DNA of 64,000 nt, taken from NCBI RefSeq assembly GCF_016862175.1, contig NZ_BOML01000003.1, positions 1 to 64,000 of the forward strand, given 5' to 3'. Below are positions 23,301 through 42,829 of this stretch, piece after piece. Every line of letters starts with the position of its first letter. Position 1 is the stretch's first letter. The notes under the pieces are model-generated. The model did not search any database. It had not been told where the DNA came from and was given only the letters and a program-made list of their open reading frames with translations. A program made the translations under genes and the position numbers. The stretch is from Paractinoplanes durhamensis (GTDB lineage Bacteria; Actinomycetota; Actinomycetes; Mycobacteriales; Micromonosporaceae).

Positions 23301-24264
23301 GCTCGACCCGCACCAGCTGCTCGGGAACGGGCGTCGTGGCCGACTGCGCCGACTTCTCCTGCACCAGGTAGCGCGGCCGGCCGCGGACCTCCTCGTGGAT
23401 CCGGGCCAGGTACTCCCCGATCACGCCCAGCCCGAGCAGGATGAACGTCCCCATCACCAGCAGCAGCAGGATGACCGTCGGGAAGCCGGCCACCGAACCG
23501 CCGCGCAGCCAGCGGACCAGCGTCTGCGCGCCGAGCAGCACCGAGAACGCGGCGAACGCGAGGCCGACCAGGGTGACCAGGTGCAGTGGCGCCGAGGTGA
23601 ACGAGGTGAGCCCGTTGACGGCCAGCCGGAACAGCGAGCGGAACGTCCAGCGGGACGCGCCACCCTCGCGGTGGTCGATGTCCACCTCGATGATGCTGCG
23701 CCGGAAGCCGATCCAGCTGCTGGTGCCGCGGAAGAACGACGAGTGCTCGGGCATCTTCAGCAGCGCGTCCAGCGCGGAGCGGCTGAGCAGCCGGTAGTCG
23801 GTCGCGTTGACCAGGTCGACCTTGGTGAGGCCGGTGAACGCCCGGTTGAACAGCTTGCCGCCGAGCCGCCCGATCAGGCCCTGGCCGGTGCGGTTGCGCT
23901 TGACCGCCTCGACCACGTGCGCGCCGTCCCGCCAGCGCTGCACCATGGCCGGGATGGCCGACGGCGGATGCTGCAGGTCGGAGTCGATGACCACGACCGC
24001 GTCGCCGGCCGCGTGCTCGAGTCCGGCCAGGACGGCCGGCTCCTTGCCGAAGTTGCGGGACAGCTGGACGCCGCGCACCCGCTCGTCGGCGAGGGCGTGC
24101 TGGACGATCCGGTCCCAGGAGTCGTCGGACGAGCCGTCGTCGACCAGGACCAGCTCGTAGCGCAGGCCGGCGTCGCCGAGCACGTCGGACAGCCGGCGCA
24201 CGAACCGGTCGACGCCCGGCCCCTCGTTGAAGATCGGTGCGACCACCGACACGAGCGCGCTCAT
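23287..24264 (-). CDS. GtrB-like polyprenol-phosphate glycosyltransferase (GT2)
   Basis: A 325-residue enzyme of the dolichol-phosphate-mannose synthase/GtrB type. The GT2 catalytic domain (1-225) shows SVVAPIFNEGPGVDRFV, VLVDDGSSDDSWD, QLSRNFGKEPAVLAGLEHA and DSDLQHPPSAIP (DxD), plus RLLSRSALDALL. Two transmembrane helices follow (about 230-290), then IGEYLARIHEEVRGRPRYLVQ, a family signature. It transfers a hexose from a nucleotide sugar to polyprenol phosphate on the cytoplasmic face. Its ATG shares ATGA with the stop of the upstream polytopic gene. Confidence 0.92.
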   Translation of the reverse strand: MSALVSVVAPIFNEGPGVDRFVRRLSDVLGDAGLRYELVLVDDGSSDDSWDRIVQHALADERVRGVQLSRNFGKEPAVLAGLEHAAGDAVVVIDSDLQHPPSAIPAMVQRWRDGAHVVEAVKRNRTGQGLIGRLGGKLFNRAFTGLTKVDLVNATDYRLLSRSALDALLKMPEHSSFFRGTSSWIGFRRSIIEVDIDHREGGASRWTFRSLFRLAVNGLTSFTSAPLHLVTLVGLAFAAFSVLLGAQTLVRWLRGGSVAGFPTVILLLLVMGTFILLGLGVIGEYLARIHEEVRGRPRYLVQEKSAQSATTPVPEQLVRVEHAER

Positions 24265-25814
24265 CGCGGTGCCGTGCTGCAGAAGCGGCGGCCGGCCAGC
24301 TGGACCGTGGCCCGGTTGAGACTCACGTCGAAGCGCCTCACTTCTCGCTGGTTGACGGTCTGACTACGGCTGTTGTGGGCGGACGTCTGCCGGAACGCGG
24401 CGCGCAGGGCGCAGCGGCGGGCGTCGCCGGCCGGCGTCGGGTCGAAGTCGGCGACCTCCTGCGCGATCCGGTCGTGCAGGAAGGGCCACTGGCCGCGGTC
24501 GGCCCGGTCCCGGAAGTCCTTGTTGGCCGCGGTGGAGACGGTGCCGGCGAGCACCAGCACGGCCAGCGCCACCATCAGGTGGCGGCGCACGAAGACGAGC
24601 AGCAGGATGCTTCCGGCCACCGTGGTGAGCCCGCTGTCCCGCCAGCCCAGGCCGAGGTGGAACCGCTGGACCTCGGCGTTGAGCGCGGCGATCGAGGCGC
24701 CCAGGATCAGGAGCACCAGGGCGACGGCGGCGAGACCGTACGTCTGACCCTGGTCCAGCGTGGGCAGGCGGCGCAGGCCGCGGACGGCCCGCCAGGCGAG
24801 CACGGCCAGCGCGACCAGGGCGAGCAGCGGGATCGCGGCGGTCACCCGCGGGAAGCCGTGCGCGGCCTGCGGCCACATCAGTGGCGGCAGCCAGGCCAGC
24901 ATCCGGCCGGGCAGGGCCGCGGGCGCCCCGACCGGCGCCAGGTCGGAGCCGCTGTAGCAGCCGCCGTCCGCGCAGCGCAGGTAGATGATCGCCCGGACCG
25001 GCAGGATCACCGGCAGGAAGCCGGCCCACAGCAGCACCAGGAACCGGGCCGACGGGCCGCGGAACGGTGAGCGCCCGAGCACGACCCGGCCACGGATCAG
25101 CACGGCCGCGGTGGCCAGCGGGACGGCGAGCAGGGCCAGTTCGTTGAACGCGGCGATGCCGGCCCCGGCCAGCACCACCAGCACGCCCGGCCGCCGGCTG
25201 CGGCAGGCCCAGGCGGCGACGGCCAGCACCAGGGCGCTGGTGGCCAGGTAGAGCGCGCCGAACAGGACGGTCGTGCTGGACCAGCCGGCCGCGACCAGGC
25301 CGGTGCCGACGGCGAACGGCAGCAGCGCCACCGGCACCGGCGGCGGCGCGCTGAACAGCCGCTCGCGCCGGGAGGTCACCGCCGCGGCGAAGACCACGGC
25401 CGCGACGGTCAGCAGGATCGCCGAGACGAACGACACCAGCCGCAGCCCGATGTTGGCGGGCAGGCCGAACAGCGCGGTGAGCGCGAAGACGACCACGTCC
25501 AGGGACCATTCGACGATCCGGCCCAGCGGCCGGAAGTTGCCCAGGTCGAGGAAGGTCGGCACGGTGCTGAACGCGTTGCGGACCAGCAGCCACGGGTTAC
25601 CGGCGTAGAGGCCGCCGTTGGCGTACACGTTGAATCGGTGGTCGGCCGACGGGGTGAGCGTGACCAGCGGCGCGAGCACGATCAGCGGCACCAGGACGCA
25701 CCGCAGCAGCAGCGCCCGCCAGGGCCGTTCGACCGCCGGTGGAGGGGGTGTGGACAGCGCCGACGGGTCGGCCTCCACCCGTGGTGGCGGGACGTTGACG
25801 ATCTCGGCGGTCAC
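24261..25814 (-). CDS. Polytopic membrane protein, GtrC-like candidate (pair member A)
   Basis: A 517-residue membrane protein with about ten hydrophobic helices. It is clearly paralogous to the gene at 32539-34161: both share APLV-TPSADHRFN-type openings, a NFRPLGR motif, CYSGSD after a Cys-containing loop, PPLMW, and the C-terminal DPTPAGxxRRCALRA. Position before gtrB/gtrA suggests the periplasmic glycosyltransferase (GtrC role) of a Gtr-like cassette; the fold would be GT-C but I cannot prove it. The GTG at 25814 gives MTAEIVNVPPP, matching the paralogue's MTAS start. Its stop overlaps gtrB. Confidence 0.72.
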   Translation of the reverse strand: MTAEIVNVPPPRVEADPSALSTPPPPAVERPWRALLLRCVLVPLIVLAPLVTLTPSADHRFNVYANGGLYAGNPWLLVRNAFSTVPTFLDLGNFRPLGRIVEWSLDVVVFALTALFGLPANIGLRLVSFVSAILLTVAAVVFAAAVTSRRERLFSAPPPVPVALLPFAVGTGLVAAGWSSTTVLFGALYLATSALVLAVAAWACRSRRPGVLVVLAGAGIAAFNELALLAVPLATAAVLIRGRVVLGRSPFRGPSARFLVLLWAGFLPVILPVRAIIYLRCADGGCYSGSDLAPVGAPAALPGRMLAWLPPLMWPQAAHGFPRVTAAIPLLALVALAVLAWRAVRGLRRLPTLDQGQTYGLAAVALVLLILGASIAALNAEVQRFHLGLGWRDSGLTTVAGSILLLVFVRRHLMVALAVLVLAGTVSTAANKDFRDRADRGQWPFLHDRIAQEVADFDPTPAGDARRCALRAAFRQTSAHNSRSQTVNQREVRRFDVSLNRATVQLAGRRFCSTAPR

Positions 25815-25889
25815 GAATGAGCAACGACCGCGAACTACCCGAAGTTGCGACAAACGCGTCCTGGCCACGGTCGTACGCGTTGGGATCAG

Positions 25890-27959
25890 GTGCGCAACGT
25901 AGCCCTGCCCGCAACTCTGGATGGCCGGCCCCGCCCGCTGCCCGGCCAGCGCGACTCGCTGCCGGTCTCGGTCCTGCCGGGGGACAGGTTCCGCCCCGAC
26001 ATCGAGGGCCTGCGGGCCGTCGCGGTGCTGCTGGTGGTGGCCGCGCACGCGGGCATCCCGGGGCTGGCCGGCGGCTATGTCGGGGTGGACGTCTTCTTCG
26101 TCATCTCCGGCTTCCTGATCACCTCGCTGCTGCTGCGCGAGGCGGAGAGCACCGGCCGGATCTCGGTGCCGCGGTTCTACGCCCGGCGGGCGATGCGGTT
26201 GTTGCCGGCCGCCGCGGTGGTGCTGGTCGCGACGCTGGTCGCGGCCCGGCTGCTGCTGCCGCTGACCCGGCTCGGCGAGTTCGCCAAGGACGCGCTGGCC
26301 GCCACCGGGTACGTCGCCAATCTGCGGTTCGCCGAGGCCGGCACCGACTACCTGCGCGCCGACCAGTCGCCGTCGCCGTTCCAGCACTTCTGGTCGCTCG
26401 CCGTCGAGGAGCAGTTCTACCTGGTCTGGCCGCTGCTGATCCTGGCCAGCGCGTACCTCTGGAAGCGTCGCCGCCCGCTCGCCGCCGTCCTCGCCGTCCT
26501 GGTCGTGGCGTCGTTCGCGCTGAGCGTGACCGAGACGGTCCGCTCGGCGCCGTGGGCCTACTTCGGGCCGCACACCCGGGCCTGGGAGCTGGGCGCGGGC
26601 GCGCTGCTGGCCCTGGCGGCCGGCCGGATCCGCAAGAGCGCGGTGCTCGGCTGGGCGGGGCTGGCCGCGATCGTCGCCGCGGCGGTGCTCTACGACGACG
26701 CAACGGCGTACCCGGGCTGGCGTGCTCTTCTCCCGGTGGCCGGCGCCGTCGCGCTGATCGCGTCGGCCGGGGCGGGCCCGGGCCGGCCGCTCGGCATCGC
26801 GCCGTTGCAGGCGGTCGGCCGTCTCTCCTACGGCTGGTACCTGTGGCACTGGCCGGTCCTGCTGATCGTCCCGGCCCATGCCGTGTGGCAGAAAGCGCTG
26901 CTCGCGGTGGGTGCGCTCGGCCTGGCCTGGGTCACCTACCACCTCGTGGAGAACCCGCTGCGACGTCGGCGGCGCCCGGTCTGGCTCAGTCTCGGCCTCG
27001 GGGCGGCGTTCTCCGGCACGGTGGCGGCGGCCGCGGTGCTGCTGGTGCTGCTGCCGCACGGGGTGGAGTCGGCCGGGCGCCGCGCCGACCTCAGCAAGAC
27101 CCTGGCCACCGCGAAGGACCCGGCGGCCGAGCTGGCCCGCACGATCGAGGCGAGCCGCGCGATGGGCCCGCTGCCGGTCAACCTCACCCCGAAGCTCAAG
27201 AAGGCGGCCCGCGACCGGCCCCGGGTGTGGGACATCGGCTGTCACGCCGACACCCCGGTCACCGTCGCGCCCACCGGCTGCGTCTTCGGCGACCCGAACG
27301 GCCGGGAGACGGTCGTGCTCTACGGCGACTCGCACGCGGCGCAGTGGTTCCCGGCGATGGAGAAGATCGCCACCGAACGGCACTGGCGGCTCGTCGACCT
27401 GACCAAGAGCTCGTGCACGGCCGCCGATCTCGCCGTCCGGCACGACACGCTGAAACGGGCGTACACCGAATGTCTGGCCTTTCATGCCTCGGCGCTCGCC
27501 CGGATCACCCGGGAGCACCCGTCGCTGGTGGTGATCGGGTCCAGCTTCAACTACGCGCCGGCCCAACCGGCCACGGATCTCGGCGGGCAGTGGCGGGCGG
27601 CCTGGGACCGCACGTTCGGCGCGCTGGAGGCGACCGGCGCCCGGGTGGCGGCGATCGCCGACACCCCGTACATGGGCGGTCCGGTTCCGGAATGTCTGGC
27701 CGATCCGGCCAACGCCGGCCACGCGGGCAACTGCACCCGCAGCCTGCGTTCGGCGCTGCGCGGTCCGGAGCAACGCGAGGTCTTCCTTGCGTACGCCGGG
27801 AGGCCGCGCACCACCGTGATCAACCCGATCACCTGGTTCTGCACCGACGTGTGCCCGGCCGTGGTCGGCAACCTGCTGGTCTACCGCGACTCCAACCACA
27901 TGACGACCACCTACTCGGCCGCCCTGGCCCCGCTGCTGGCGGCCAGGCTGCCCGGTTAG
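25890..27959 (+). CDS. OafA/YrhL-type acyltransferase with C-terminal SGNH domain
   Basis: A protein of about 689 residues. The N-terminal acyltransferase-3 domain has FRPDIEGLRAVAVLLVVAAH (catalytic His region), VDVFFVISGFLITSLL and WSLAVEEQFYLVWPLL across about ten membrane helices. The C-terminal extracytoplasmic SGNH domain (about 390-685) has the nucleophile block VVLYGDSHAAQWFPAME and the DSNHMT Asp-His pair. Such proteins O-acetylate surface glycans or peptidoglycan. It diverges from the gtrC-like gene over 75 bp. The GTG at 25890 was chosen; a TTG at 25845 would add 15 residues. Confidence 0.9.
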   Translation: MRNVALPATLDGRPRPLPGQRDSLPVSVLPGDRFRPDIEGLRAVAVLLVVAAHAGIPGLAGGYVGVDVFFVISGFLITSLLLREAESTGRISVPRFYARRAMRLLPAAAVVLVATLVAARLLLPLTRLGEFAKDALAATGYVANLRFAEAGTDYLRADQSPSPFQHFWSLAVEEQFYLVWPLLILASAYLWKRRRPLAAVLAVLVVASFALSVTETVRSAPWAYFGPHTRAWELGAGALLALAAGRIRKSAVLGWAGLAAIVAAAVLYDDATAYPGWRALLPVAGAVALIASAGAGPGRPLGIAPLQAVGRLSYGWYLWHWPVLLIVPAHAVWQKALLAVGALGLAWVTYHLVENPLRRRRRPVWLSLGLGAAFSGTVAAAAVLLVLLPHGVESAGRRADLSKTLATAKDPAAELARTIEASRAMGPLPVNLTPKLKKAARDRPRVWDIGCHADTPVTVAPTGCVFGDPNGRETVVLYGDSHAAQWFPAMEKIATERHWRLVDLTKSSCTAADLAVRHDTLKRAYTECLAFHASALARITREHPSLVVIGSSFNYAPAQPATDLGGQWRAAWDRTFGALEATGARVAAIADTPYMGGPVPECLADPANAGHAGNCTRSLRSALRGPEQREVFLAYAGRPRTTVINPITWFCTDVCPAVVGNLLVYRDSNHMTTTYSAALAPLLAARLPG

Positions 27960-28634
27960 TCAGCGGAGCAGGTCAGCCAGGGTCGGCAGCTGGGCCCGGT
28001 CCACCATGATCGTCCGAGCCGTGTCGTGGTCGCGGTACAGCCGGGTCAGCCGCTGCGACAGCAGGTCGTCCCAGGGCCGGTCCGGGCGGTGCTTCTCCCA
28101 GGTCGCCCGGTCCGGCAGGTATTCGAGCAGCACGCCCAGGTCGCGCAGCAGCGCGAAGGACGGGCAGTCGGTCACCACGATCGGCCGGTGGTCCGGGTTG
28201 ACCAGCAGCCGCTGCTGAAGGGTCAGCACGAACTCGCGGACGGCCACGGTGTCCAGCCCGATCGCCACGTAGAGGTGGGCGGGCGGACGCTGGGCGGCGA
28301 CCGGCACCTTGCGTACGCCCGCAACGCCGGCGGCATGCCGGCCGCGCAACCGGCGCAGCACCGCACGGGCGATCCGCGGTACCGTGTGCACCGGGTCCTT
28401 GACCAGCGACACCAGCCCGTACCCCAGCCGGTAGGACTCGCTGTGCTGCAGCCGCTCCAGGCGGCGGCGTTCGCGGTCGCGCTCGCGCCGCATCTCCTCC
28501 GCGTTCGCCTGTTCCTCGGCCAGCTTCACCTCGAGCGAGCGCAGCCGGCCGGCCATCGCGGCCAGCTCCCAGCGGGCCCGCTCCGGCGCCTCCAGCACGA
28601 CCCGGCGGGCCGGGATCTTCACGCGTTCCGTCAC
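27960..28634 (-). CDS. Coiled-coil protein paired with glycosyltransferase (pair member A)
   Basis: A 224-residue protein of no family I recognise. Residues about 20-60 form a charged coiled coil (LRSLEVKLAEEQANAEEMRR, then RERRRLERLQHSESYRLG). A basic helix follows, then a compact C-terminal domain of about 110 residues with LYVAIGLDTVAVREFV, PIVVTDCPSFALLRDLGVLL and EYLPDRATWEKH. It is a paralogue of the gene at 34188-34805. The GTG at 28634 overlaps the upstream glycosyltransferase stop (GTGA) behind GGAGG. I infer an accessory or scaffold subunit of the upstream enzyme. Confidence 0.6.
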   Translation of the reverse strand: MTERVKIPARRVVLEAPERARWELAAMAGRLRSLEVKLAEEQANAEEMRRERDRERRRLERLQHSESYRLGYGLVSLVKDPVHTVPRIARAVLRRLRGRHAAGVAGVRKVPVAAQRPPAHLYVAIGLDTVAVREFVLTLQQRLLVNPDHRPIVVTDCPSFALLRDLGVLLEYLPDRATWEKHRPDRPWDDLLSQRLTRLYRDHDTARTIMVDRAQLPTLADLLR

Positions 28635-30808
28635 GCCATCCTCCACGTGTTCGCGGGCAACCCGCTCAGCCATCCGGCCGCCGCGGCACCACCGTTGCCG
28701 AAGCCCAGCTCGCGGCACCGGTGGGCCAGCCCGGCCCGCACCTCCGGCCGCACTGCCTGGTCCAGCGCCTCTTCCAGCTCGGCCGAGGCCGGGTCCTCGA
28801 CGGTCAGCGCGACCCCGGTGGCCGCGGCGAACCGGGCCCGGCCGCGCTGGTCGTCGAGGCGGGTCGCGGTGTTCGGCAGGAACACCGTGGGGATCGCGAA
28901 GCCGATCTGCTCGTGGAACGAGTTGTAGCCGGCCGCGCTGATCGTGAGGTCGAACGCCCGCAGGTAGCGGCTCACCGGGTAGATCTTGACGACCTTGGCC
29001 CCGGGCACCCGCGGCATCGGCCGGGTGGCGATCGTCGACTCGGCCAGCACCAGCTGGAAACCGTGGCCGGACAGGTGCGTGCAGATCCGCGCGATCGGCG
29101 ACGCGATGTCGTTGATGTTCCCGGCGCCGAGCTGCAGCAGCACGGCCGGCCGGTCGTCCAGGTCCAGTTCCCTCTTCGCCGCCTCCCGATCGAGCAGTTC
29201 GCTCTCGTCGAGGAAGGTGATCGGGGCGACCTGGAACGCGCTCGCCCGGTCGGCGACGGTCGGGCCCTCGTCGGCGATCGCGGCGAACTCGCCCGGCTCC
29301 AGCACGTGGTCGAAGACCTTGCCCTCGGTGATCCAGTCGGCGCCGACCCCGCGCTGCCACATCGCCCTGCGCACCCAGACCCAGACGATCTCCGGGTGGT
29401 CCCGGACCGCCTCGACGATGCCGGGGTGCGGCAGGCAGTCGACCGCCACCACGGACGGCTCGTGCAGCTCGATCAGGTGGGCCAGGCGGGCCCGCAGCAC
29501 CGCGGTCCAGCGGGCCAGGCCGGCGTCGAGCACCTTCCGGGACGGGATGTACTCGGTGAGGAAGCCCTCCTGGTGGGCGACCGAGGCACCGTACGACTGG
29601 GTGGCGATCACCGCCGACATGTCGCCCGGCAGTCGCCGGCCGATGGCCATCAGCCGGGAGATGTGGCCCATGCCGGCGCCGTTGTCGCTGACCATGAGGA
29701 CCCGCCGCTGCTTGAGGCTCCCCGGCACCGCGGGTGCGGCCGGTGAGATCCGCGAGCGGATGCCGAAGTCGGCCAGCCGGGCCAGGTGCGACTGGTGGCC
29801 GTAGCGGCGCTCGGCGAACTCCCGGGCCCGGCTCACCACCGCCCGGTAGCGGGCCGGATCGGCATACAGCTCGGCGACCAGGCGCGGCACGTCGGCCGGG
29901 GTGCCGTAGAGCGCGGCGTCGGCGAACGTCGGCCGGAAGTGCTCGCCGATGATCACCGGGACGCCGCTGGCCATCGCCTCGAGGATGGTCCGGCCGAACG
30001 CCTCGACCAGGTCGGGGTCGTGGAAGTAGACGAAGAAGTCGATGGTCCGCAGGAACTCCTCGGGCTCCTCGGCCCCGAAGCGTACGACGTCCCAGTTGTC
30101 CGGTTTCTCGCCGAGCCGCTCCACCGCGATCTCGCCGCCGCCCAGCACCCGCACCCGCACGTCGCCGGTCACCGGGTAGGCCTGCCGGATCTCCGCCGGG
30201 TCGATCGGCCACTTCACCGGGTCGCCGCGGCCGTGCCGGCCGATCACCGGAACGTCGCCGACGAAGCCGTCCCGGTCCCGCCACCAGTGCGCGACGTCGA
30301 TGATCTCGTGCCAGTCGTCCGGCGCGAGCCGGGCGTCCGGGACGACCTGACGCACCTGGTCACGGACCTGGGAGCTGATCGGCGCCCACTCCACGGTGTC
30401 GCCGAAGTAGCGGTGCACCCGATCCCGGACGGCCGCGAAGTCGTAGTAGCGGAACGGGTTGCCGACGTCGCCGGGCGCCTGGTTGATCACCATGACGGTG
30501 CGCTCGGCGGTGATCCGCGGCAGCGTGGCCAGGTCCTCGGTGAAGATCCGCGGCTGGCGCACCAGCAGCAGCTTGCAGGAGACCGGCTCGTCGTCGCGGG
30601 CCAGCGTGGCCACGCCGTCGCGGAGCAGCTCACTGATCCGTGGGCTGAACGGCAGCACGCGCGGCTGGTGGGGTGACGGCACGTGCACGAGAACGGTGGA
30701 GAGCGCGGCCTCGGCCTGCGCGTGCACCTCGGCGGCGATGCTGGCCGAGGTTCCCCCCGGATATCGGAAGTCCGAAAGGATCGCCACGTCAAAGGTGGTC
30801 CCGGGCAC
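28631..30808 (-). CDS. Double GT-B glycosyltransferase (pair member A)
   Basis: A 725-residue protein with two glycosyltransferase halves. The first half (about 5-360) has FDVAILSDFRYPGG and a GT4-like C-subdomain: DFFVYFHDPDLVEAFGRTIL with the EX7E pair, then ASGVPVIIGEHF. The second half (about 375-720) resembles MurG/GT28 folds: a glycine-rich loop GAGMGHISRLMAIGRRL, LQLGAGNIND and SAAGYNSFHEQIGFAIPTVF. Only the start GTG at 30808 is preceded by a reasonable site (GAGGGAG). Probably cytoplasmic, adding two different sugars. Paralogue: 34789-36801. Overlaps its coiled-coil partner. Confidence 0.82.
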   Translation of the reverse strand: MPGTTFDVAILSDFRYPGGTSASIAAEVHAQAEAALSTVLVHVPSPHQPRVLPFSPRISELLRDGVATLARDDEPVSCKLLLVRQPRIFTEDLATLPRITAERTVMVINQAPGDVGNPFRYYDFAAVRDRVHRYFGDTVEWAPISSQVRDQVRQVVPDARLAPDDWHEIIDVAHWWRDRDGFVGDVPVIGRHGRGDPVKWPIDPAEIRQAYPVTGDVRVRVLGGGEIAVERLGEKPDNWDVVRFGAEEPEEFLRTIDFFVYFHDPDLVEAFGRTILEAMASGVPVIIGEHFRPTFADAALYGTPADVPRLVAELYADPARYRAVVSRAREFAERRYGHQSHLARLADFGIRSRISPAAPAVPGSLKQRRVLMVSDNGAGMGHISRLMAIGRRLPGDMSAVIATQSYGASVAHQEGFLTEYIPSRKVLDAGLARWTAVLRARLAHLIELHEPSVVAVDCLPHPGIVEAVRDHPEIVWVWVRRAMWQRGVGADWITEGKVFDHVLEPGEFAAIADEGPTVADRASAFQVAPITFLDESELLDREAAKRELDLDDRPAVLLQLGAGNINDIASPIARICTHLSGHGFQLVLAESTIATRPMPRVPGAKVVKIYPVSRYLRAFDLTISAAGYNSFHEQIGFAIPTVFLPNTATRLDDQRGRARFAAATGVALTVEDPASAELEEALDQAVRPEVRAGLAHRCRELGFGNGGAAAAGWLSGLPANTWRMA

Positions 30809-34805: not shown

Positions 34806-36801
34806 GGTTCACCTCCCGGCATTGCCCGGCGAGCCAGGTCGCCGCGTCCTCGGCGCCGTTGCCGAAGGACAGCTCGGCACAGCGCCGGATCAGCGCGTTC
34901 CGGACCGCCGGGTCGGCGAGCTTCGCCAGCTCGGTCCCGGCCGACTCGTCGTCGGTGGCGCACAGGGCCACCCCGGCCGCGGCGGCGAAGCGGGCCCGGG
35001 CCAGCTCGTCGTCGCAGGCGTCCGGGTCGGGCACGAAGACGGTCGGCACCCGGGCACCGAGCAACTCGTGGAAGTTGGTGTAGTCGGCCCGGGACACCGC
35101 CACCGTCACCTCGCCCAGGTCGGCGGCGGCCGCCTCGATCGTGCGGAAGCCGGGCAGCGCCGCCTCCACGCCCCGGCAGAGCAGCGTGTGGTCGCCCTCG
35201 CGACGGGCGAGCCGGTCGGGCAGGTCGGTGATCGGGTCCACGGTGGAGACCCCGGACCGGGCGGTCGTGGTCCAGCCCTCGTCGCCGGTCGCCGCGAACT
35301 CCCCCGGTTCGAGGATGCCGTCGAAGGCCGCGCCGCGGCCGGCCCATTCGCCGCCGGTGCCGCGCCGCCACATCGCCGGGCGCAGCCAGAGCCAGCGCGG
35401 CCGGGGGTTCTCCGCGGCCGCCTCGACGATCCCGTCGTGCGGCAGCCCGCCGACCAGCACGGCCCGCGGCCGGTAGAGCTCGACGAGATGCCCGAGCCGG
35501 GTCCGCACGAAGCCGTCCCAGCGGGCCGGCGGCGCGCCCAGCTCGGTCGCGCCGGGCAGGTATTCGGTGAGCAGGCCGGCCGCGTGCGCGTCGGCGAGGC
35601 CGGCCGAACCGGCGACCACGACCGCCTCCAGGCCGGACGGCAGCCGCCGGGCGATCGCCCGGAAGCGGGCCACGTCGTCGCCGACCAGCAGCACCCGCCG
35701 GCTCGTCCGCTCCGGGCGCAGCGGCGGGCGGAACGGCCGGCGATCGGCCTTCGGCATCACGCCGAGCGACGCGAGCCGGCCGATGTGCGAGGCGCTGCCG
35801 AACTGATCGGTGACGTACCGGCGGGCCCGCTCCACCTGGGCCTCGTAGGCGGGCCGGTCGGCGTGCAGCCGGGCGACCAGGTCGCGGACCCCGGCCGGGT
35901 CGGTGTAGAGGGCGGCGTCGCCGAAGATGGCCCGGAAGTGCGGGCCGACGATGACCGGCACCCCGCTGGCCATCGCCTCGAGGATGGTCCGGCCGAACGC
36001 TTCTTTCCAGTCCGGGTCGTGGAAGTAGACGAAGAAATCGAGACCGGCCAGGAAATCCCGGGGCGACTCGGCGCCGAACTCGACGACGTCCCAGTTGTCC
36101 GGTTGCCGGCCGAGACGGCGTACCCCGATGTCACCGCCGCCGAGGATGCGGACCTTGACCTCCGCCGAGTCCGGGTAAGCCTGCAGCAGCTCACCCGGCT
36201 CGCGGGGCCATTTCACCTCGTCCGGCCGGCCGTGCCGGCCGATGACCGGGATGTCGCCCGGCGGACGGCGGGCGACGGCCCAGTCGTCGATGTCGATGAT
36301 CTCGTGCCAGTCGGTGTCCGGGAGCGTGGTGCGCGGCGCCACCCGGTGCACGTTCTCGCGCACCTGCGAGCTGATCGGCGCCCAGACGACGTCGTCGCCG
36401 AACAGCCGGGTGATCCGCTCGCGGACCTCGTCGAAGACGTAGTAGCGCTGGTCCTGCCGCTCGTCGCCGGGCGGCTGGTTGAGCACCACGAAGGTATGCC
36501 CGGCCCGCACCGCCGGCACCACGGCCGGCTCCTCGGTGAAGATCCGCGGCTGGCGGATGAGCAGCACCCGCGCGGCCACCTCGGTGCCGTCGTCGTGGGC
36601 CAGGTCGGCGAGGCCGTCGCGCAGGCAGGCCACGATCCGGGACTGGAACGGCCGGGCGTGCCGCAGGTGCGGCGACGGGACGTGGATGAGCACCGTGGAC
36701 AGTCCCGCGGCGGCCTGGGCGCGGACCTCGGCGACGATGCTCGCCGAATTGCCACCTGGGTACCGGAGGTCCGACAGGATGGCGACGTCGTACAAGGTCA
36801 C
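34789..36801 (-). CDS. Double GT-B glycosyltransferase (pair member B, second half degenerate)
   Basis: A 670-residue paralogue of the gene at 28631-30808. The first half is well kept: YDVAILSDLRYPGGNSASI and DFFVYFHDPDWKEAFGRTIL with both Glu of EX7E. The second half is shorter: the glycine-rich loop (GxGMGH in copy A) is replaced by GDDVARFRAIARRLP, and the acceptor/donor block reads SRADYTNFHELLGARVPTVF. The N-terminal half therefore probably remains catalytic, while the C-terminal half may be altered or inactive. GTG start at 36801. It diverges from the GT2 fusion gene at 36898. Confidence 0.8.
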   Translation of the reverse strand: MTLYDVAILSDLRYPGGNSASIVAEVRAQAAAGLSTVLIHVPSPHLRHARPFQSRIVACLRDGLADLAHDDGTEVAARVLLIRQPRIFTEEPAVVPAVRAGHTFVVLNQPPGDERQDQRYYVFDEVRERITRLFGDDVVWAPISSQVRENVHRVAPRTTLPDTDWHEIIDIDDWAVARRPPGDIPVIGRHGRPDEVKWPREPGELLQAYPDSAEVKVRILGGGDIGVRRLGRQPDNWDVVEFGAESPRDFLAGLDFFVYFHDPDWKEAFGRTILEAMASGVPVIVGPHFRAIFGDAALYTDPAGVRDLVARLHADRPAYEAQVERARRYVTDQFGSASHIGRLASLGVMPKADRRPFRPPLRPERTSRRVLLVGDDVARFRAIARRLPSGLEAVVVAGSAGLADAHAAGLLTEYLPGATELGAPPARWDGFVRTRLGHLVELYRPRAVLVGGLPHDGIVEAAAENPRPRWLWLRPAMWRRGTGGEWAGRGAAFDGILEPGEFAATGDEGWTTTARSGVSTVDPITDLPDRLARREGDHTLLCRGVEAALPGFRTIEAAAADLGEVTVAVSRADYTNFHELLGARVPTVFVPDPDACDDELARARFAAAAGVALCATDDESAGTELAKLADPAVRNALIRRCAELSFGNGAEDAATWLAGQCREVNRAANS

Positions 36802-36897: not shown

Positions 36898-39231
36898 ATG
36901 ACACCCGGACCGGATCCGCTCGCCGTCGCGGCCCTGCAGGCCCGTTCGGTGGCCGCGCGCGGGCCGCTCGCCCGCGCGGCCGGGGCGCCCTCGGCCGAAG
37001 CACTGGTCACCGGCGCACCCGCCGACCCGTGGCTGGCCGGCGAGCTGGCCCGGGTGATGGCGCTGCAGGATCTGCGCCCGGACGACCAGGCCGGCGCGCT
37101 CGCCATCCTGGCCCGGCTGCGGCGGGCCGGCACCATCGCGCCGGACCATCAAGGGCTGCACGTCCAGGTCGCGTACTCCGACGGCGACCGCTCGCTGGCC
37201 GCCACGCTGCTCGACGAGTACCCCGCCGTCGCCGAGCCGATCCGGGCCGCGGTCACGCTCGATCTGGCCAACCCGCATGCCAACGGCACCGGCGAGAAGT
37301 GGGAGGCGGGCTTCTCGGCGCTGCTGCCGCACCCGGGTGTACGGATCGGCGACGGCCCCGGCGACCCGATCGACCGCCTGGTCACCGGCGCGGCCCAGCG
37401 CACCGGCCACGCCACCCGGATCACCACCATCGTCACCACCTGGCGACCCGACCAGGGTCTGCTCACCGCGGTCCGGTCGCTGGTCGCGCAGACCTGGACC
37501 AACCACGAGATCCTGGTGATCGACGACGGCTCGCCGCCCGAGTCCGACCCGGTGCTGCGGGCGGCCGGCGCGATCGACCCCCGGGTCCGGGTGATCCGGA
37601 TGGTCACCAACGGCGGCACCTACGTGGCCCGCAACGCCGGTCTGGACGCCGCCACCGGCGACTTCGTCACGTTCCAGGACTCCGACGACTGGTCGCACCC
37701 GATGCGGCTGGAGAAGCAGGTGGCGCCACTGCTCGCCGACGAGGCGATCTTCTCGACCACCTCGACCGGCATGCGGGTCACCCCCCAGCTGGTGGTGACC
37801 CGGCCCGGCATCGAGCAGACCCGGTCGTACAACCTCTCCTCGCTGATGTTCCGCCGGCAGCTCGCGCTGGACCGGGTCGGCTACCTCGACGCCGTCCGCA
37901 AGGGCGGCGACGCCGAGTACGTCGAGCGGGCCCGCGCCGTCTTCGGCGGCCGGGCCGCCACCCTGCACCTGGCCGGCCCGCCGCTGGCCCTGATCCGGCT
38001 GAGCACCGGCTCGCTGTCCAGCGCCGACTACCGGGTCGGCTGGATGCACCCGGCCCGCCGCTCCTACCTCTCCGCGTTCCAGGCCTGGCACCTGCGGATC
38101 AAGGCGGGCACCGCCGCACCCCGCGAACCCCGGGCGTTCGTGGCCCCCCGCCGGATCCGCGGCACGACCGGCGCCCGCGCCTACGACGTGCTGCTGGCCG
38201 GCGACTGGACCACCGACGGCGGGGCCGGCACGGCCGGGATCGGGCAGCTGCGCGCGCTGGACAAGCGCGGCCTGCGCGGCGCCCTGCTGCACCTGGACGA
38301 GCTGGCCAACCTGCGCCACGGGGCACGCAACCTCGACCCGCACGTCCAGGAGCTGATCAACACGGGGGACATCACCCAGGTCGAGCTCACCGACGACGTG
38401 CGGACCCGGCTGGTGGTGGCCCGCTGCGCCCGCGTGCTGCAGCACGCGCCCGACCTGGCCAGCGGCATCCGGGCGCAGCGCGTGGTGATCGAGTCGGCCG
38501 CGGTGTCCCGGTCGGCCGCGGCCGGCGCCCGCCGGCTGTTCGGCCGCCGCCCGCTCTGGGCGCCGGCCGGCCCGGACGGCCGCCGGTTGCTCACCGCCGC
38601 GCTCGCCGAGGACCCGCTCGCCGCCGGCCCACCCGGCGACCTGCTCACCGCGGTCGACCTGCCCGGAACCGTGGACGCCGGGCACTGGCGGCTCGACCGG
38701 CGCGGACCGCGCGCGGACCGGCCGGTGGTCGGCCGCCGCTGCCGGGGCGGCCGGGCCGAGTGGCGGCGGCTGCGCGACGAGCTGCCCGACTCGAGCCGGG
38801 TGGACGTGCGGCTGCTCGACGACGACGATTCGGCCGGGCGGGCGTTCGGCCGAGTCGGCACCCCGCGGGCCTGGCTGGTCTACGGCCGCGAGGAGGTCAG
38901 CCTGCGCAGCTTCCTCTACCAGGTCGACTTCTACCTGCACCTGCCCCGGCCGGAGGCGCCGGCCGACCCGGACCCGGATCTGCTCGCCGCGCTCGCGGCC
39001 GGCTGCGTGCTGCTGCTCCCCTACCGGTACGCGGCCACCTTCGGCGACGCGGCCGTCTACTGCGAGCCGGCCGAGGTGCCGGAGACGGTCCGGGCACTGC
39101 ACGAGAACCAGCAGGCGCTGCGCGTTCAGGCGGCCCGGGGCCCGGAATTCGTCCGCCGGCACCACGGGCACGAGCTGTACGCCGAACGCGCCGCTCTGTT
39201 GGCAACCCAAGGGCAACCGACGCGCTCGTAA
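36898..39231 (+). CDS. GT2 glycosyltransferase fused to a GT-B-like module (pair member A)
   Basis: A 777-residue protein: N-terminal helical region (1-165); a GT2 domain (about 170-400) with ILVIDDGSPPESDPVL, NGGTYVARNAGLDAATGDF and the DxD-type FQDSDDWSHPMRL; and a C-terminal region (about 425-775) homologous to the first half of the double GT-B enzymes (YDVLLAGDWTTDGGA, then FLYQVDFYLHLPRPEAP and FGDAAVYCEPAEVPETV). The EX7E pair expected in that module is missing (PADPDPDLLAALAAG), so only the GT2 half looks active. The ATG at 36898 follows GAGGAG. Paralogue: 40352-42829. Confidence 0.82.
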   Translation: MTPGPDPLAVAALQARSVAARGPLARAAGAPSAEALVTGAPADPWLAGELARVMALQDLRPDDQAGALAILARLRRAGTIAPDHQGLHVQVAYSDGDRSLAATLLDEYPAVAEPIRAAVTLDLANPHANGTGEKWEAGFSALLPHPGVRIGDGPGDPIDRLVTGAAQRTGHATRITTIVTTWRPDQGLLTAVRSLVAQTWTNHEILVIDDGSPPESDPVLRAAGAIDPRVRVIRMVTNGGTYVARNAGLDAATGDFVTFQDSDDWSHPMRLEKQVAPLLADEAIFSTTSTGMRVTPQLVVTRPGIEQTRSYNLSSLMFRRQLALDRVGYLDAVRKGGDAEYVERARAVFGGRAATLHLAGPPLALIRLSTGSLSSADYRVGWMHPARRSYLSAFQAWHLRIKAGTAAPREPRAFVAPRRIRGTTGARAYDVLLAGDWTTDGGAGTAGIGQLRALDKRGLRGALLHLDELANLRHGARNLDPHVQELINTGDITQVELTDDVRTRLVVARCARVLQHAPDLASGIRAQRVVIESAAVSRSAAAGARRLFGRRPLWAPAGPDGRRLLTAALAEDPLAAGPPGDLLTAVDLPGTVDAGHWRLDRRGPRADRPVVGRRCRGGRAEWRRLRDELPDSSRVDVRLLDDDDSAGRAFGRVGTPRAWLVYGREEVSLRSFLYQVDFYLHLPRPEAPADPDPDLLAALAAGCVLLLPYRYAATFGDAAVYCEPAEVPETVRALHENQQALRVQAARGPEFVRRHHGHELYAERAALLATQGQPTRS

Positions 39232-39276
39232 AGCGGGCGGCCCGGCAACCGATTCTTCGGGGCGTAAGACACAGAC

Positions 39277-39360
39277 AGCCGGTCCCCCGACCGGCTAGCC
39301 GCGGGAGATTCCCCTGCCTCCCGCGGCCCGCGACCCCGCCGTCCCCCGCGGCGGGGTCGC
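39277..39360. terminator. Three consecutive perfect hairpins between convergent genes
   Basis: Hairpin 1 (39277-39296) has 8-bp arms AGCCGGTC/GACCGGCT and a CCCC loop. Hairpin 2 (39298-39327) has 10-bp arms GCCGCGGGAG/CTCCCGCGGC. Hairpin 3 (39330-39360) has 12-bp arms GCGACCCCGCCG/CGGCGGGGTCGC. They fill nearly the whole gap between the convergent GT2 fusion and methyltransferase-like genes and should block read-through both ways. Confidence 0.8.
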
Positions 39361-39362
39361 GC

Positions 39363-40355
39363 TTACTTCTTGGTGGCCGCGGCCGTCGGCTGCGGCTGCG
39401 CCAGCGTGGTCCAGCGGCCCGCGAAGCGGCGCTGCTCGGTCAGCCCGAAGCCGCCCTGCCGCGGCGCGACCCGCCCGGGCACCTCGTCGACCACCACCGC
39501 CCCCGAATCGGCGAGCCGGCGGCCCAGCACGTGCAGGGCGGGCGCCACCGCCTCGGCGCCGGGTGCCGCGGTGCCGTCCACCACGAGCAGGTCGATATCG
39601 GTGAGGCCGTCCAGCGCGTCGACGTCGTACCAGTCGACTGTCCGCCCCTCCACGGTCAGCTCGGCCGGTCCGGCGTGCCGCACCTCGACCTCGGCCAGGC
39701 CGTGCTCGCGCAGCATCTGCCGGGTCACCTCGGCCCGCTTGCGGTCATGGTCGACCGCGACCAGCCGGCCGCCGGTGGCCTCCAGCGCGTAGCCGAGCCA
39801 GATCGTCGCCGGCCCGCCGCCGAGCGCCACGGTCAGGCCGGGCTGCCGGGCCGCCGCGATGGTGATCAGGCCGAGCAGGTCGGTCGGGTTGAGCGCGCCG
39901 CCGGCCGGCATCGGCGCCCGCGGTTTGACCTGCTGGAACAGCTGGAACAGCGCCTCGATCTCCTGGTTCTGCTCGCGCAGCAGGAGCTCGGCACCGCGGC
40001 CGGTGAGCCGTTCGGTGCGGGCCAGCGCCTCGGTCAGTTCCTGGTGGCGGTCGCCGGCCGCGAGCCGTTCCTTCTCCACCGAGGCGATCACCCGGCGCTG
40101 CAGCTGCTCGACGACGACCCGCAGGTCCCGGACGGCGTCCTGGGTGGTCCGGGTGGCCCCGCCGATCCGCCGGGACAGGTGGATCACCCCGGCCGTCACC
40201 GCCACCAGCAGCAGGGCGAGCAGGCTGGTGGCGAGCGCGGCCCGCCCCGCGGCGGACGCGACGACCACCCCGGCACCGACCGCTGCCATGATCCCGAGAC
40301 CGGCGATCTGGCGCGCGGAGAGCGCCTTGGCCAGCTTCTTGAGCTTCGCTTTCAC
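39363..40355 (-). CDS. Membrane-anchored methyltransferase-like protein (pair member B, degenerate SAM motif)
   Basis: A 330-residue paralogue of the gene at 31529-32539 with the same plan: two N-terminal membrane helices (about 15-58), a helical stalk containing ERLAAGDRHQELTEAL, and a Rossmann-like domain starting at ALNPTDLLGLI. Motif I, LELGSGTS in copy A, is TVALGGGPATIWLGYAL here, and the DGPP loop reads VVDGTAAPGAEA. These losses suggest weak or no SAM use. It keeps VAVDHDRKRAEV. The GTG at 40355 overlaps the GT2 fusion stop by 4 bp (GTGA). Confidence 0.7.
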   Translation of the reverse strand: MKAKLKKLAKALSARQIAGLGIMAAVGAGVVVASAAGRAALATSLLALLLVAVTAGVIHLSRRIGGATRTTQDAVRDLRVVVEQLQRRVIASVEKERLAAGDRHQELTEALARTERLTGRGAELLLREQNQEIEALFQLFQQVKPRAPMPAGGALNPTDLLGLITIAAARQPGLTVALGGGPATIWLGYALEATGGRLVAVDHDRKRAEVTRQMLREHGLAEVEVRHAGPAELTVEGRTVDWYDVDALDGLTDIDLLVVDGTAAPGAEAVAPALHVLGRRLADSGAVVVDEVPGRVAPRQGGFGLTEQRRFAGRWTTLAQPQPTAAATKK

Positions 40356-42829
40356 ATCATCGGTAACGCCCTCGTCGCAGCCGCCGTTACGGGGAGCAAC
40401 TCCATGATCCGTTCGACGAAAAGGGCCGGGTCGTGGGCCCGGGCCACCACCTCGCGAGCTCGCCGGCTCTGCTCGGCGTACAACGCCCGATCGGCCCGGT
40501 AGCGGTCGATCAGCGGCCCCACCTCGGACCGGCCGCAGTAGACGGCCGCGTCGCCGTAGAGGCCCGCGTAGCGCTCCGGCATCACCACCACGCAGCCCAT
40601 CGCCGCTGCCTCGAGGGCCGGCCGGGAGTACCACTCGGCGCTCTCCGGTGAGGGAAAGTGCAGGTAGAAGTCGAGCTGATGGAGGAAGGGCCGGGGGTCG
40701 AGGTCGGCCGCGGAGTAACCGAGCCAGGCCCGCGGCAACGGGATGTCCGGCTCGGTGCGGGGCCGGTCGGGCAGCCGGATCCGCACATCCGCCTCCGGAA
40801 GCCGGCGACAGGCCGCGAGGGTGGCGGCGATGTCCGGCGGCCAACTGGCGGCATCGCAGAGGTCGGTGCCGGCGACCGCCGGGCCCGGTGCGGCGCCGGA
40901 CCGTTCGGAAACCCAGCCGGGCGCGGCGAGCGCGGTGGGGAAGTCGCGGTCGGCGAGGGTCACACCTTCTTGCGTACGCAAGGAAAGCCGCACCCCGGCA
41001 TCCTGCGGAACCCAGACGGGGTCTGTCCCGAAGAGCCGCCGTGCCGTCGCGGTGCAGGTCGCCGGCGCATAGCGATGATCGGTGCCGTCGCTGCGGACCG
41101 GCGCCCGGTCGGCCACCACGACCACCCGCCGCCCGGTGATCCGGCAGCCGGACGGCGCGAACTGCAGCACCGCCGCCTGCCGCACCAGCACCAGCGCGGC
41201 GTCGACCAGCTCGCCGGGCGCGACCCGGTCGACCTCCCCCTGATTGATCAGGTCCTGCACCGGCGCGCTGAGCGGCTGCCGCTTGAGATACACCCCGCGG
41301 GGCGACTCGAGGTGCAGCAGCGCCACCCGCATCCCGGCCGCCCGCAGCGCACCGATCTCGTCCAGCGCGGTCCGCTGCGCACTCTCCAGGAACCGCCAGT
41401 CGGCCACCATCAGCACGTCGTACTCGGCGACCTGCTCCGGATCGGCGCCGAGCAGATGCCCGGGCGCCGCGAACGGCCGGTCCGAGCCGTCGGCCGGCCG
41501 GGCCGCCGCCGCCACCCCGGCCAGGATCTGCTGGTGATAGCGCAGGTAGGCGGAGCTGTACGCGGTCCGCGCCGGATGCATCCAGTGCGGCTTGATCTCC
41601 GAGCGGGACAGCGACCCGGCCGACAGCCGGATCAGCGCGAGCGGCAGCGAGTCGAGGTGCCGCACCCGGCGCACCCCGAACGCGGCCTGGATCCGCCCGA
41701 TGTACTCGCTGTCGGCGGCCTTGCGCACCCGGTCGAAGTAGCCGACCCGGGACAGCACCGCGTTGCGCCGGATCAGCAGCGACGACGGGTTGAACCGGCC
41801 GCTGCGCACCCCCGGCCGGTTGAGCAGCAGATGGTCGGTGACGGCCAGCCCGTCCGAGGTGGTGGCGACCAGCCGCCGGTCCTCGAGCATCGGCGTGACC
41901 TGCAGCTCCAGCCGGCGCGGGTGGGACCAGTCGTCGGAGTCCTGGAACGCGGCGAACTCGCCGCCGGCCGCGTCCAGCCCGGCGTTGCGGGCCGCGTAGG
42001 TGCCGGCGTTGACGGCCAGCTTCACCAGCCGGATCCGGTCGCCGAGCGCGGTCGCCGCCCGCAGCACCTCGTCGTACTCCGGCGGGGACGCGTCGTCGAC
42101 GATGATGATCTCGACGTTGGCCCAGCTCTGGGCGAGGATCGACCGCACCGCGGTGAGCAGCCCGCGATCGGGACGGAACGCGGTCACCACCACCGAGACC
42201 CGGTGCGGGGTCTCGACCCGCTCGGCGGCCGGCGTGGCCAGCCGGTCGAACGGCACGCCGGCACCGTCGCCGACCACCGGGGCGGGCGCGGGCAGCAGGG
42301 CCTGAAAGTCACGCAGCCACGGCTCGACCGGCCGCTGCGCGACGAACGGGTTGAGCAGGTCGACCCGCAGCGCGCCGCGGGTCACCGGGTTCATCCGCCG
42401 ATAGCCGGACAGCAGTCGTTTCGCCTGTTCCGGGCCCTGATGGGCGAGCGCCATCTGGGTGTGCAGCGCCTGGTTGGCCGGGGACACCGCGGCCGCCCCG
42501 TAGGCCCGGCGGATCAGCTCGTACAGCGCGAGCGCGTCCTCCCGGTCGCCGGGCAGCAGCTCCTGCAGCGCGATGATCTGGGCCACCGCCGACACCAGGC
42601 CGACATCGGCGGTCCGCCGGCGGCGGCGCAGCCAGCGGCGATCGCCGCGCCGGGCCGCCGCGAGCAGATCGTCGAGGTTTCCTGAATCGCCGAGCGCGGC
42701 CCGCGCCATCAGCACCCGGGAGTCAGGCGTCCGGTTGCGGGAGGCGGTGGCGGTCAGCGCCAGCCGCAGCCGCGGACCGATCGCGCGAATGTGATCATCG
42801 AGCAGACCGGATGGATGTGGCTCCCGCAT
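40352..42829 (-). CDS. GT2 glycosyltransferase fused to a GT-B-like module (pair member B)
   Basis: An 825-residue paralogue of the gene at 36898-39231. The N-terminal helical part is followed by a GT2 domain with SVVVTAFRPDRGLLTAVRSI, IIVDDASPPEYDEVL, NAGTYAARNAGLDAAGGEF and FQDSDDWSHPRRL. The C-terminal GT-B-like module retains an EX7E-like pair in EWYSRPALEAAAMGCVVVM and the GLYGDAAVYCGRSEV segment, so both halves may be active. The ATG at 42829 gives MREPHPSGLLDDHIRAIG. Coupled by a 4-bp overlap to the methyltransferase-like gene downstream; glnD lies 44 bp upstream on the same strand. Confidence 0.82.
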   Translation of the reverse strand: MREPHPSGLLDDHIRAIGPRLRLALTATASRNRTPDSRVLMARAALGDSGNLDDLLAAARRGDRRWLRRRRRTADVGLVSAVAQIIALQELLPGDREDALALYELIRRAYGAAAVSPANQALHTQMALAHQGPEQAKRLLSGYRRMNPVTRGALRVDLLNPFVAQRPVEPWLRDFQALLPAPAPVVGDGAGVPFDRLATPAAERVETPHRVSVVVTAFRPDRGLLTAVRSILAQSWANVEIIIVDDASPPEYDEVLRAATALGDRIRLVKLAVNAGTYAARNAGLDAAGGEFAAFQDSDDWSHPRRLELQVTPMLEDRRLVATTSDGLAVTDHLLLNRPGVRSGRFNPSSLLIRRNAVLSRVGYFDRVRKAADSEYIGRIQAAFGVRRVRHLDSLPLALIRLSAGSLSRSEIKPHWMHPARTAYSSAYLRYHQQILAGVAAAARPADGSDRPFAAPGHLLGADPEQVAEYDVLMVADWRFLESAQRTALDEIGALRAAGMRVALLHLESPRGVYLKRQPLSAPVQDLINQGEVDRVAPGELVDAALVLVRQAAVLQFAPSGCRITGRRVVVVADRAPVRSDGTDHRYAPATCTATARRLFGTDPVWVPQDAGVRLSLRTQEGVTLADRDFPTALAAPGWVSERSGAAPGPAVAGTDLCDAASWPPDIAATLAACRRLPEADVRIRLPDRPRTEPDIPLPRAWLGYSAADLDPRPFLHQLDFYLHFPSPESAEWYSRPALEAAAMGCVVVMPERYAGLYGDAAVYCGRSEVGPLIDRYRADRALYAEQSRRAREVVARAHDPALFVERIMELLPVTAAATRALPMM

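Follow-up and report, generated by a model that had tools for sequence, protein, structure and literature searches.

Two gene sets in a gsf-type glycan locus of Paractinoplanes durhamensis, with apparent loss of catalytic hallmarks in members of three gene pairs

Gene content of the locus

The 64,000-nucleotide stretch of Paractinoplanes durhamensis DNA analysed here (contig NZ_BOML01000003.1, positions 1 to 64,000; hereafter the window) carries a glycan locus at 19811-42829, which is probably a variant, with two gene sets, of the gsf cluster of Actinoplanes missouriensis. The Pfam content of the 16 locus proteins (Table 1) supported the reading, given in an earlier note on this DNA, of a dedicated surface-glycan pathway with Stealth, nucleoside diphosphate (NDP)-sugar dehydrogenase, GtrA/GtrB and acyltransferase genes. 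Five families had two members each: polytopic proteins (poly1, poly2), coiled-coil proteins (cc1, cc2), double GT-B glycosyltransferases (GTs; dGTB1, dGTB2), fusions of a GT2 and a GT-B domain (fusions 1 and 2) and methyltransferase-like proteins (MT1, MT2). All ten paired genes were confirmed at their coordinates, on the minus strand except for GT2 fusion 1 (36898-39231, plus). Read from the glnD side, the minus-strand order was fusion 2, MT2, dGTB2, cc2, poly2, MT1, dGTB1, cc1, poly1, GtrB and GtrA, with fusion 1, the CAP gene and AT3 interspersed on the opposite strand. The set MT-dGTB-cc-poly was present twice, in the same order and on the same strand, and poly2 and MT1 shared one base (32539).

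BLASTP between members gave 47% identity over 518 amino acids (aa) for the polytopic pair (E 5e-107 to 1e-106), 45% over 204 aa for the coiled-coil pair (E 5e-39 to 2e-38), 49% over 716 aa for the double GT-B pair (E 0), 40% over 761-762 aa for the fusions (E 6e-148 to 2e-149) and 47% over 240-259 aa for the methyltransferase-like pair (E 5e-67 to 2e-72). Judged by these alignments, the five pairs are genuine, with similarity far above chance. Some families were also linked to each other. The C-terminal GT-B domain of the fusions resembled the N-terminal GT-B module of dGTB (about 27% identity, E 2e-20 to 2e-24 by BLASTP). The C-terminus of cc matched the N-terminal half of the second, GT28-like module of dGTB (hhalign probability 92.5, E 4.8e-7 in a single comparison; E only 0.05 to 0.8 by single-sequence BLAST). 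Profile comparison found no match between cc and the first GT-B module, and none between the two GT-B modules of dGTB. The AlphaFold model of cc1 (predicted local distance difference test, pLDDT, 86.7; predicted template-modelling score, pTM, 0.52) had a helix (residues 16-63) and an alpha/beta fold (119-223). For the cc model, Foldseek returned nothing with E < 0.001, and its high-probability rows included glycosyltransferases but also formyltetrahydrofolate deformylases. Because Foldseek was not decisive, the half-domain reading of cc rests on the hhalign match, which indicates homology between the C-terminal half-domain of the cc proteins and the second GT-B module of dGTB. In sequence searches against the PDB, dGTB (A1) gave two weak GT4 matches and the first module alone weak matches (E 7e-4 or worse); with the second module, matches were to entries of the YjiC type (E 8e-9) and MurG (E 1e-6).

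The earlier note had described the five families as unrelated and as occurring exactly twice. Two members per family, at 40-49% identity by BLASTP and pairwise alignment, were borne out inside the locus. The count failed genome-wide and in three relatives, where further polytopic copies occur, and the links from the fusion and cc C-termini to the two dGTB modules contradict the lack of relationship. The orphan third member of the polytopic family lay at G000:C87:46440-47948 (L130:9396-10988; G and L numbers denote genomes and loci), and its adjoining frames were unlike the locus genes by eye. In loci L005, L006 and L022 the third copy stood inside the locus, beside GtrB/GtrA, and formed a separate clade in the polytopic tree.

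Table 1. Genes of the glycan locus, with positions in the window
Feature	Position	Strand	Evidence
Stealth family protein	19811..21559	+	Pfam PF17101, PF11380, PF17102, PF17103 (CR1-CR4), all above cut-off
NDP-sugar dehydrogenase, UDP-ManNAc/GlcNAc dehydrogenase-like	21615..22877	+	TIGR03026 E 9e-127; PF03721/PF00984/PF03720
GtrA-type flippase	22917..23300	-	PF04138 E 4e-20, above cut-off
GtrB-type polyprenyl-phosphate glycosyltransferase, GT2, two transmembrane segments	23287..24264	-	PF00535 E 4e-26; 2 hydrophobic segments
poly1, predicted polytopic GT-C-type transferase, set 1	24261..25814	-	47% to poly2; D40-equivalent invariant
AT3-SGNH O-acyltransferase	25890..27959	+	PF01757 E 5e-34, PF19040 E 5e-33
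cc1, coiled coil and GT-B N-terminal half-domain, set 1	27960..28634	-	AlphaFold model; hhalign to dGTB second module
dGTB1, double GT-B, both modules intact, set 1	28631..30808	-	PF13692 above cut-off (first module); PF04101 just below cut-off (second)
CAP/SCP-domain secreted protein, inside the locus	31031..31516	+	PF00188 E 4e-26
MT1, class I methyltransferase with two transmembrane segments, motif I intact, set 1	31529..32539	-	PF13578 E 1e-12; E174 present; 2 hydrophobic segments
poly2, predicted polytopic GT-C-type transferase, set 2	32539..34119	-	AlphaFold pLDDT 93.8, pTM 0.93; Foldseek ArnT, AftB, ALG12
cc2, set 2	34188..34805	-	45% to cc1
dGTB2, first GT-B intact, second without glycine loop and ~36 residues, set 2	34789..36801	-	
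GT2 + GT-B fusion 1, GT2 aspartates kept, GT-B without EX7E glutamates	36898..39231	+	PF00535 E 1.5e-26
MT2, motif I acidic residue lost, set 2	39363..40355	-	PF13578 E 6e-9, still above cut-off
GT2 + GT-B fusion 2, EX7E kept (E732, E740)	40352..42829	-	PF00535 E 1e-23

The most likely start of the dehydrogenase was the GTG at 21615, since the TIGR03026 match covers residues 4-395 and the alternative start at 21690 would lose the N-terminus. Stealth family proteins act as sugar-1-phosphate transferases. In NCBIfam, GtrB scored best against the PgfS and undecaprenyl-phosphate transferase models, without reaching the cut-off of either. Two hallmarks of GtrA-dependent three-component systems were found in the window, namely GtrA (PF04138) and a predicted membrane-linked GT-A synthase (PF00535, two hydrophobic segments). 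Pfam matched neither a Wzx flippase nor a Wzy polymerase among the 16 locus proteins; the polytopic pair matches no Pfam family, so a divergent polymerase is possible. Six GtrA-family matches occurred in the whole genome, two of them adjacent at G000:C6:235004-235926. The CAP-domain gene, on the strand opposite to its neighbours, was retained in many related loci.

Related loci and the gsf cluster

A pattern-based dGTB search of GTDB genomes yielded at least 73 loci, and the closest among the matches listed were from Paractinoplanes and Actinoplanes. The forms of the locus were classed by annotation with profiles of 13 families. The zero form (L089-L093) held fusion 2, MT, CAP (in four of five), AT3, dehydrogenase and Stealth. 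Fusion 1, dGTB and cc were added to it, without poly, in L007, L087 and L095. The single-set form had poly, GtrB and usually GtrA as well, and L013 was such a set with its inner block inverted. Two sets were present in L001-L006, L022 and the window, and an eroded double form without poly1 and AT3 in L024-L027, L042, L078, L079, L081-L083 and L085. L084 was cut by a contig end, and L019, on a short contig, was left unclassed. Five loci (L080, L088, L094, L096 and L097) repeated genomes already in the set.

A hand tally of dGTB matches in 67 genomes of the genus gave 16 with none beyond the fusion (five of them, L089-L093, sequence-checked), 30 with one (including G057, which has the second module only), 8 with two near full-length and 13 with shortened copies. 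Polytopic proteins occurred in 46 of the 250 genomes of the family, within which the search was made, and all 46 belonged to a single one of its 44 genera, that of the window. A polytopic copy was present in G006, G009 and G011, with no dGTB match beyond fusion level. Relatives of dGTB (L028-L047) were seen in Jiangella, Cellulomonas, Nesterenkonia and alphaproteobacteria. Because a cc-like frame accompanies dGTB in several Jiangellaceae loci, the pairing of dGTB with cc may predate this cluster.

The locus lay between ffh and glnD in all 18 further cases in which both flanks were seen (11, six annotated loci and G034). None of these was double-set; a locus with two sets exceeds the length of the stretches examined, which reached ffh or glnD on no more than one side. 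Between the two flanks, G034 (8,773,466 bases), which we take to be A. missouriensis 431, carried stealth, ugdh, gtrA, gtrB, poly, cc, dGTB, fusion, AT3, MT and fusion. This gene set and order are those given for the eleven-gene gsf cluster of A. missouriensis (AMIS_70380-AMIS_70480; Tezuka and Ohnishi 2026, June, PMC13390465), namely Stealth, NDP-sugar dehydrogenase, GtrA, GT2/GtrB, a protein with 11 transmembrane (TM) segments, an unknown protein, GT28-C, GT2-like, AT3, a 2-TM methyltransferase and GT2-like. All eleven gsf families were present in the window, with two copies each of MT, dGTB, cc and poly versus a single copy in A. missouriensis. Because each of these four is double, the window holds a gsf variant and not a plain member.

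The polytopic pair

Each of poly1 and poly2 had 10 hydrophobic segments. D40, just after TM1, was invariant in 43 of 43 rows of the polytopic alignment (A6), which comprised 41 of the 45 listed locus rows and the two of the window; the cc alignment (A7) comprised 57 of 59 rows, two over-long ones being dropped. The AlphaFold model of poly2 (pLDDT 93.8, pTM 0.93) placed TM1 at 10-32, followed by short helices at 41-72. Among the best 50 Foldseek rows for poly2, only ArnT (E 6e-4), AftB (E 3e-3) and ALG12 (E 2.5e-2) reached a probability of 0.99-1.00. All three are GT-C enzymes, which together with the model upheld the label "GtrC-like" of the earlier note. GT-C enzymes are marked by a proposed catalytic Asp after TM1 and by an extracytoplasmic domain there (PMC11127046). 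In the polytopic proteins the segment count fell within 7-13 TM, helices after TM1 were present in the model, and an acidic residue followed TM1. Sequence search of the polytopic proteins against the PDB gave no match, and Pfam on 43 members found only MAP17 in five and single stray matches. A GT-C fold is predicted for both poly1 and poly2. In view of D40, the poly2 model, the Foldseek matches and the GT-C marks outlined in PMC11127046, the polytopic protein, rather than GtrB, is proposed as the external transferase of gsf-type clusters.

Catalytic residues and selection

The motif names used below (motif I, EX7E and glycine loop) presumably apply to these sites. All conserved-site residues examined were kept in dGTB1. 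In the second module of dGTB2, G377, G379 and G381 of the glycine loop were deleted in 20 of 20 set-2 rows; 18 rows also lacked residues 546-581, and of the remaining two, one lacked 547-581 and one 546-579. R481 was replaced by P in 19 rows and by A in one. The single Jidongwangia dGTB copy was without the same parts. The first module of dGTB2 kept E269 and E277 in all eight full double-set rows. The second module of dGTB2 thus appears catalytically dead. In MT2, E174 of motif I was lost in 20/20 set-2 rows and also in Jidongwangia and G057; it was present in 35/35 reference rows. The methyltransferase site of MT2 is likely dead. Both EX7E glutamates were absent from fusion 1 in 41/41 rows, with the GT2 aspartates kept; in fusion 2 the first glutamate was kept in 31 and the second in 30 of 35 rows. 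By sequence, three of the five pairs have one member without catalytic hallmarks (dGTB2 in its second module, MT2 and GT2 fusion 1).

The eroded loci had lost further parts. Of 11 dGTB1 rows, nine were without most of the first module and all 11 without G379, and the first module of dGTB2 had deletions of at least 8 residues in 10 of 12 rows (about 165 residues in four). In L026, L027, L042, L078, L079, L081-L083 and L085, MT1 kept E174 (10/10) but D258 in only 1/10, and MT2 kept D258 (12/12) without E174; a complementary decay of MT1 and MT2 in the eroded set is possible.

The ratio of nonsynonymous to synonymous substitution rates (dN/dS, omega) of the dead dGTB2 module was 0.14-0.37 over eight species pairs, and the control, the whole dGTB2 gene in two shifted sense frames, gave 1.48-3.40. 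This module is under purifying selection. In four of four eroded pairs its omega (0.14-0.28) lay below that of the first module (0.41-0.50). Whole-gene omega was 0.20-0.44 (dGTB) and 0.24-0.40 (MT) for the degenerate copies, and 0.13-0.26 and 0.18-0.51 for the intact ones. In one pair (cc, L001/L002) a 5' extension gave an omega of 1.03.

Origin of the two sets

Trees were built on stop-to-stop frames with poorly filled columns removed, and some rows carry 5' extensions; those of dGTB, poly, the fusions and the flanks were quick trees. The five repeats were excluded from the cc, MT, dGTB and poly trees. L088 and L097 were also excluded from the fusion and flank trees and the patristic distances, where L080, L094 and L096 stayed; these three were removed before the fusion approximately unbiased (AU) tests and residue counts. 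Jidongwangia was taken as G024/L041 and Mangrovihabitans as G018/L007. Copy 1 was monophyletic in all four trees (cc, MT, dGTB and poly), and copy 2 in those of cc, dGTB and MT. In the poly tree, copy 2, Jidongwangia and G057 formed one clade (96), the single copies of the eroded sets being relabelled copy 2 by position. Copy 1 grouped with single-set Actinoplanes for cc (99/97), dGTB (88) and MT (81/67), and its placement for poly was unsettled. Copy 2 joined Jidongwangia in three of the four families (dGTB, MT and poly); cc copy 2 did not, and that grouping was not rejected (p 0.33). AU tests rejected copies 1 and 2 as one clade for dGTB (p 4.7e-6), MT (7e-39), poly (7e-10) and, weakly, cc (0.039). 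Tandem duplication within the double-set lineage is rejected by these tests in all four families, for cc weakly. The trees indicate that the two sets are long-separated versions. In the rpoB tree the double-set clade stood with Actinoplanes (98/94) and Jidongwangia elsewhere.

The earlier note had envisaged a pathway, fusions included, that was duplicated as a set and then rearranged, and knew of no described system of this content. A multi-gene set is indeed present twice, but its duplication within the lineage is rejected by the AU tests, and no rearrangement is needed, the sets being co-linear. The fusions are an older pair, because both are present in single-set genomes. The single-set cluster has been published as gsf (PMC13390465). 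What the note had named as refuting it, independent acquisition of the pairs or a described cluster of the same content, is largely what was found.

Two origins fit these trees. We lean slightly, at about even odds, towards a lateral one, in which the ancestor of the double-set clade already held an Actinoplanes-type set and gained a Jidongwangia-like block next to it. The block moved would be GT2 fusion 2 - MT2 - fusion 1 - dGTB2 - cc2 - poly2, which is contiguous. Both fusions, present once each per locus, grouped the double-set clade with Jidongwangia/G057 (Shimodaira-Hasegawa-like approximate likelihood ratio test, SH-aLRT, 99 and 100) against the rpoB tree, and AU tests spoke against an rpoB-like grouping (p 0.00026 and 0.014). 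The patristic ratio P-Jid/P-A was 0.58 and 0.63 for the fusions versus 1.06-1.10 for ugdh, gtrB and glnD. However, stealth, outside the block, was equally skewed (0.66; AT3, at 1.17, was not), cc copy 2 did not group with Jidongwangia, and the species reference is the single gene rpoB. In addition, branching within each copy's subtree is not in conflict with the species tree, as an old duplication followed by differential loss also predicts. We hold such a vertical origin for a serious possibility, a little short of even. The duplication would have preceded the diversification of the genus. Actinoplanes and Mangrovihabitans would later have lost copy 2, Jidongwangia and G057 copy 1, and the zero-set clade both. 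The dGTB tree, with copy 1 beside single-set Actinoplanes and Mangrovihabitans (88, internal order unresolved) and copy 2 beside Jidongwangia (99), agrees with the rpoB tree in both groupings if the duplication predates the genus. This course needs about five losses, as well as duplicated fusion genes that are retained in none of the annotated loci.

Discussion

We read the locus, with a probability of roughly 0.7, as a double-set gsf variant, encoding a GtrA-dependent pathway for the synthesis and modification of an extracellular glycan on the surface of the sporangium or spore. In A. missouriensis, transcription of gsf is switched on at day 3 on HAT agar, in early sporangium formation, and deletion, described for this species only, led to smaller sporangia, misshapen immature spores, spore chains and fewer released spores (PMC13390465). 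The authors assume that gsf modifies a polysaccharide of the sporangium matrix, and they predicted no functional domain for AMIS_70420 and AMIS_70430 (PMC13390465). In the proposed working, the GT2 fusions, dGTB1 and Stealth would build the glycan in the cytoplasm from NDP-sugars, one of them oxidised by the dehydrogenase, and MT1 would methylate it at the membrane. GtrB would make the polyprenyl-phosphate sugar and GtrA would flip it, after which poly1 and poly2, as GT-C enzymes, would add the flipped sugar outside the cell. The AT3-SGNH protein may O-acylate the product there. Set 2 would be no plain back-up, with the catalytic aspartate retained in poly2 and the first GT-B module in dGTB2. 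It might supply a second external sugar addition and non-catalytic partners, for acceptor binding or scaffolding, to the set-1 enzymes.

Several observations weigh against parts of this reading. The Foldseek TM-scores of poly2 were low (0.27-0.41), with a single match at E < 0.001, and membrane pyrophosphatases (probability 0.18-0.38) ranked above ALG12 by E-value. In the gsf paper, the role of external transferase is proposed for GtrB (AMIS_70410) instead of the polytopic protein, and by its account the gsf mutant was not complemented (PMC13390465). MT2 keeps G176 and G178 (20/20) and D or E at 199 (20/20) and passes the Pfam cut-off; because that cut-off is passed and these other S-adenosylmethionine-site residues are kept, MT2 may be altered rather than dead. 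The omega control was imperfect, one antisense register being low as well (0.26-0.57), and three of four full double-set pairs showed weaker constraint on the dead module (0.27, 0.28 and 0.37) than on the live one (0.14, 0.26 and 0.21). We infer the substrates and linkages, and likewise a partner role for set 2.

Each set might instead make its own glycan in two parallel, separate pathways that share GtrA/GtrB, Stealth and the dehydrogenase, the motif losses altering specificity only. The sets are co-linear, each with MT, dGTB, cc and poly; E269 and E277 of dGTB2 are conserved throughout the full double-set genomes, both polytopic copies keep D40, and in Lactococcus lactis one GtrA flippase is described as serving several GT-A/GT-C pairs (PMC8035078). 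With its glycine loop gone and its nucleotide-binding half incomplete, the second module of dGTB2 is hard to picture as active, however, and with the one-base overlap of poly2 and MT1 the sets look like one operon, so we consider separate pathways unlikely. It is similarly improbable that the degenerate members are pseudogenes in decay that are being lost. The first-module deletions of dGTB1 and dGTB2 in the eroded loci, the higher omega of the dGTB2 first module there and the missing AT3 and poly1 would fit such decay. Yet open frames of ~280-820 aa survive in all eroded loci, and in the four eroded pairs the dead module is more constrained than the first module. Within the reading as a double-set gsf variant, we put forward tentatively, and as somewhat doubtful, an enzyme/pseudoenzyme assembly line in a spore-sac glycan pathway. 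In three of the five pairs a live member would stand beside a dead one, and the dead members, together with the cc proteins as lone acceptor-side half-domains of the same dGTB transferase, would persist under selection in a structural role beside the live enzymes; in a sister clade both copies would have continued to lose catalytic parts with their frames intact.

A locus that looked like an orphan is now tied to a pathway with a deletion phenotype, and the two unassigned gsf proteins gain candidate roles, as a GT-C transferase and as a GT half-domain on a coiled coil. With no set, one set, two sets and two eroded sets, a single genus offers a natural series on the retention of apparently dead glycosyltransferase modules.

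Comparison with known systems

Split or inactive GT partners are known from Alg13/Alg14, PssD/PssE and GtfA/GtfB, in which a lone GT28-type N-terminal half or a dead GT helps an active partner. In contrast to these, dGTB1 also has an N-terminal half of its own, and partnering in the window would be hypothetical. KpsC, as described in PMC10148158, likewise has two GT modules in one chain; both of its modules transfer 3-deoxy-D-manno-octulosonic acid (Kdo), whereas those of dGTB are of differing type (GT4-like and GT28/GT1-like). Three-component GtrA/GtrB/GT-C systems, as outlined in PMC8035078 and PMC11127046, share with the window the adjoining flippase, synthase and predicted GT-C. The window differs from them in having two GT-C genes per locus (three in three relatives) and a cytoplasmic glycan-building part with Stealth.

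Our literature search, made mostly without subscription papers, found no report of a duplicated cluster or of dead members among the matches listed, and among those on Stealth and pseudo-GTs no closer system. No second paper carrying any of four AMIS tags queried was found, and the string "duplicat" is not present in the main text of PMC13390465. The closest system is the gsf cluster described there, with the same eleven families, the same order and, as read from G034, the same ffh-glnD site. The window differs in carrying the MT-dGTB-cc-poly set a second time, in the CAP gene embedded in the locus and in the position of AT3. The single-set gsf cluster is thus already known; added here are the predicted GT-C assignment, the cc half-domain, the two set lineages and the apparent live/dead make-up of three pairs.

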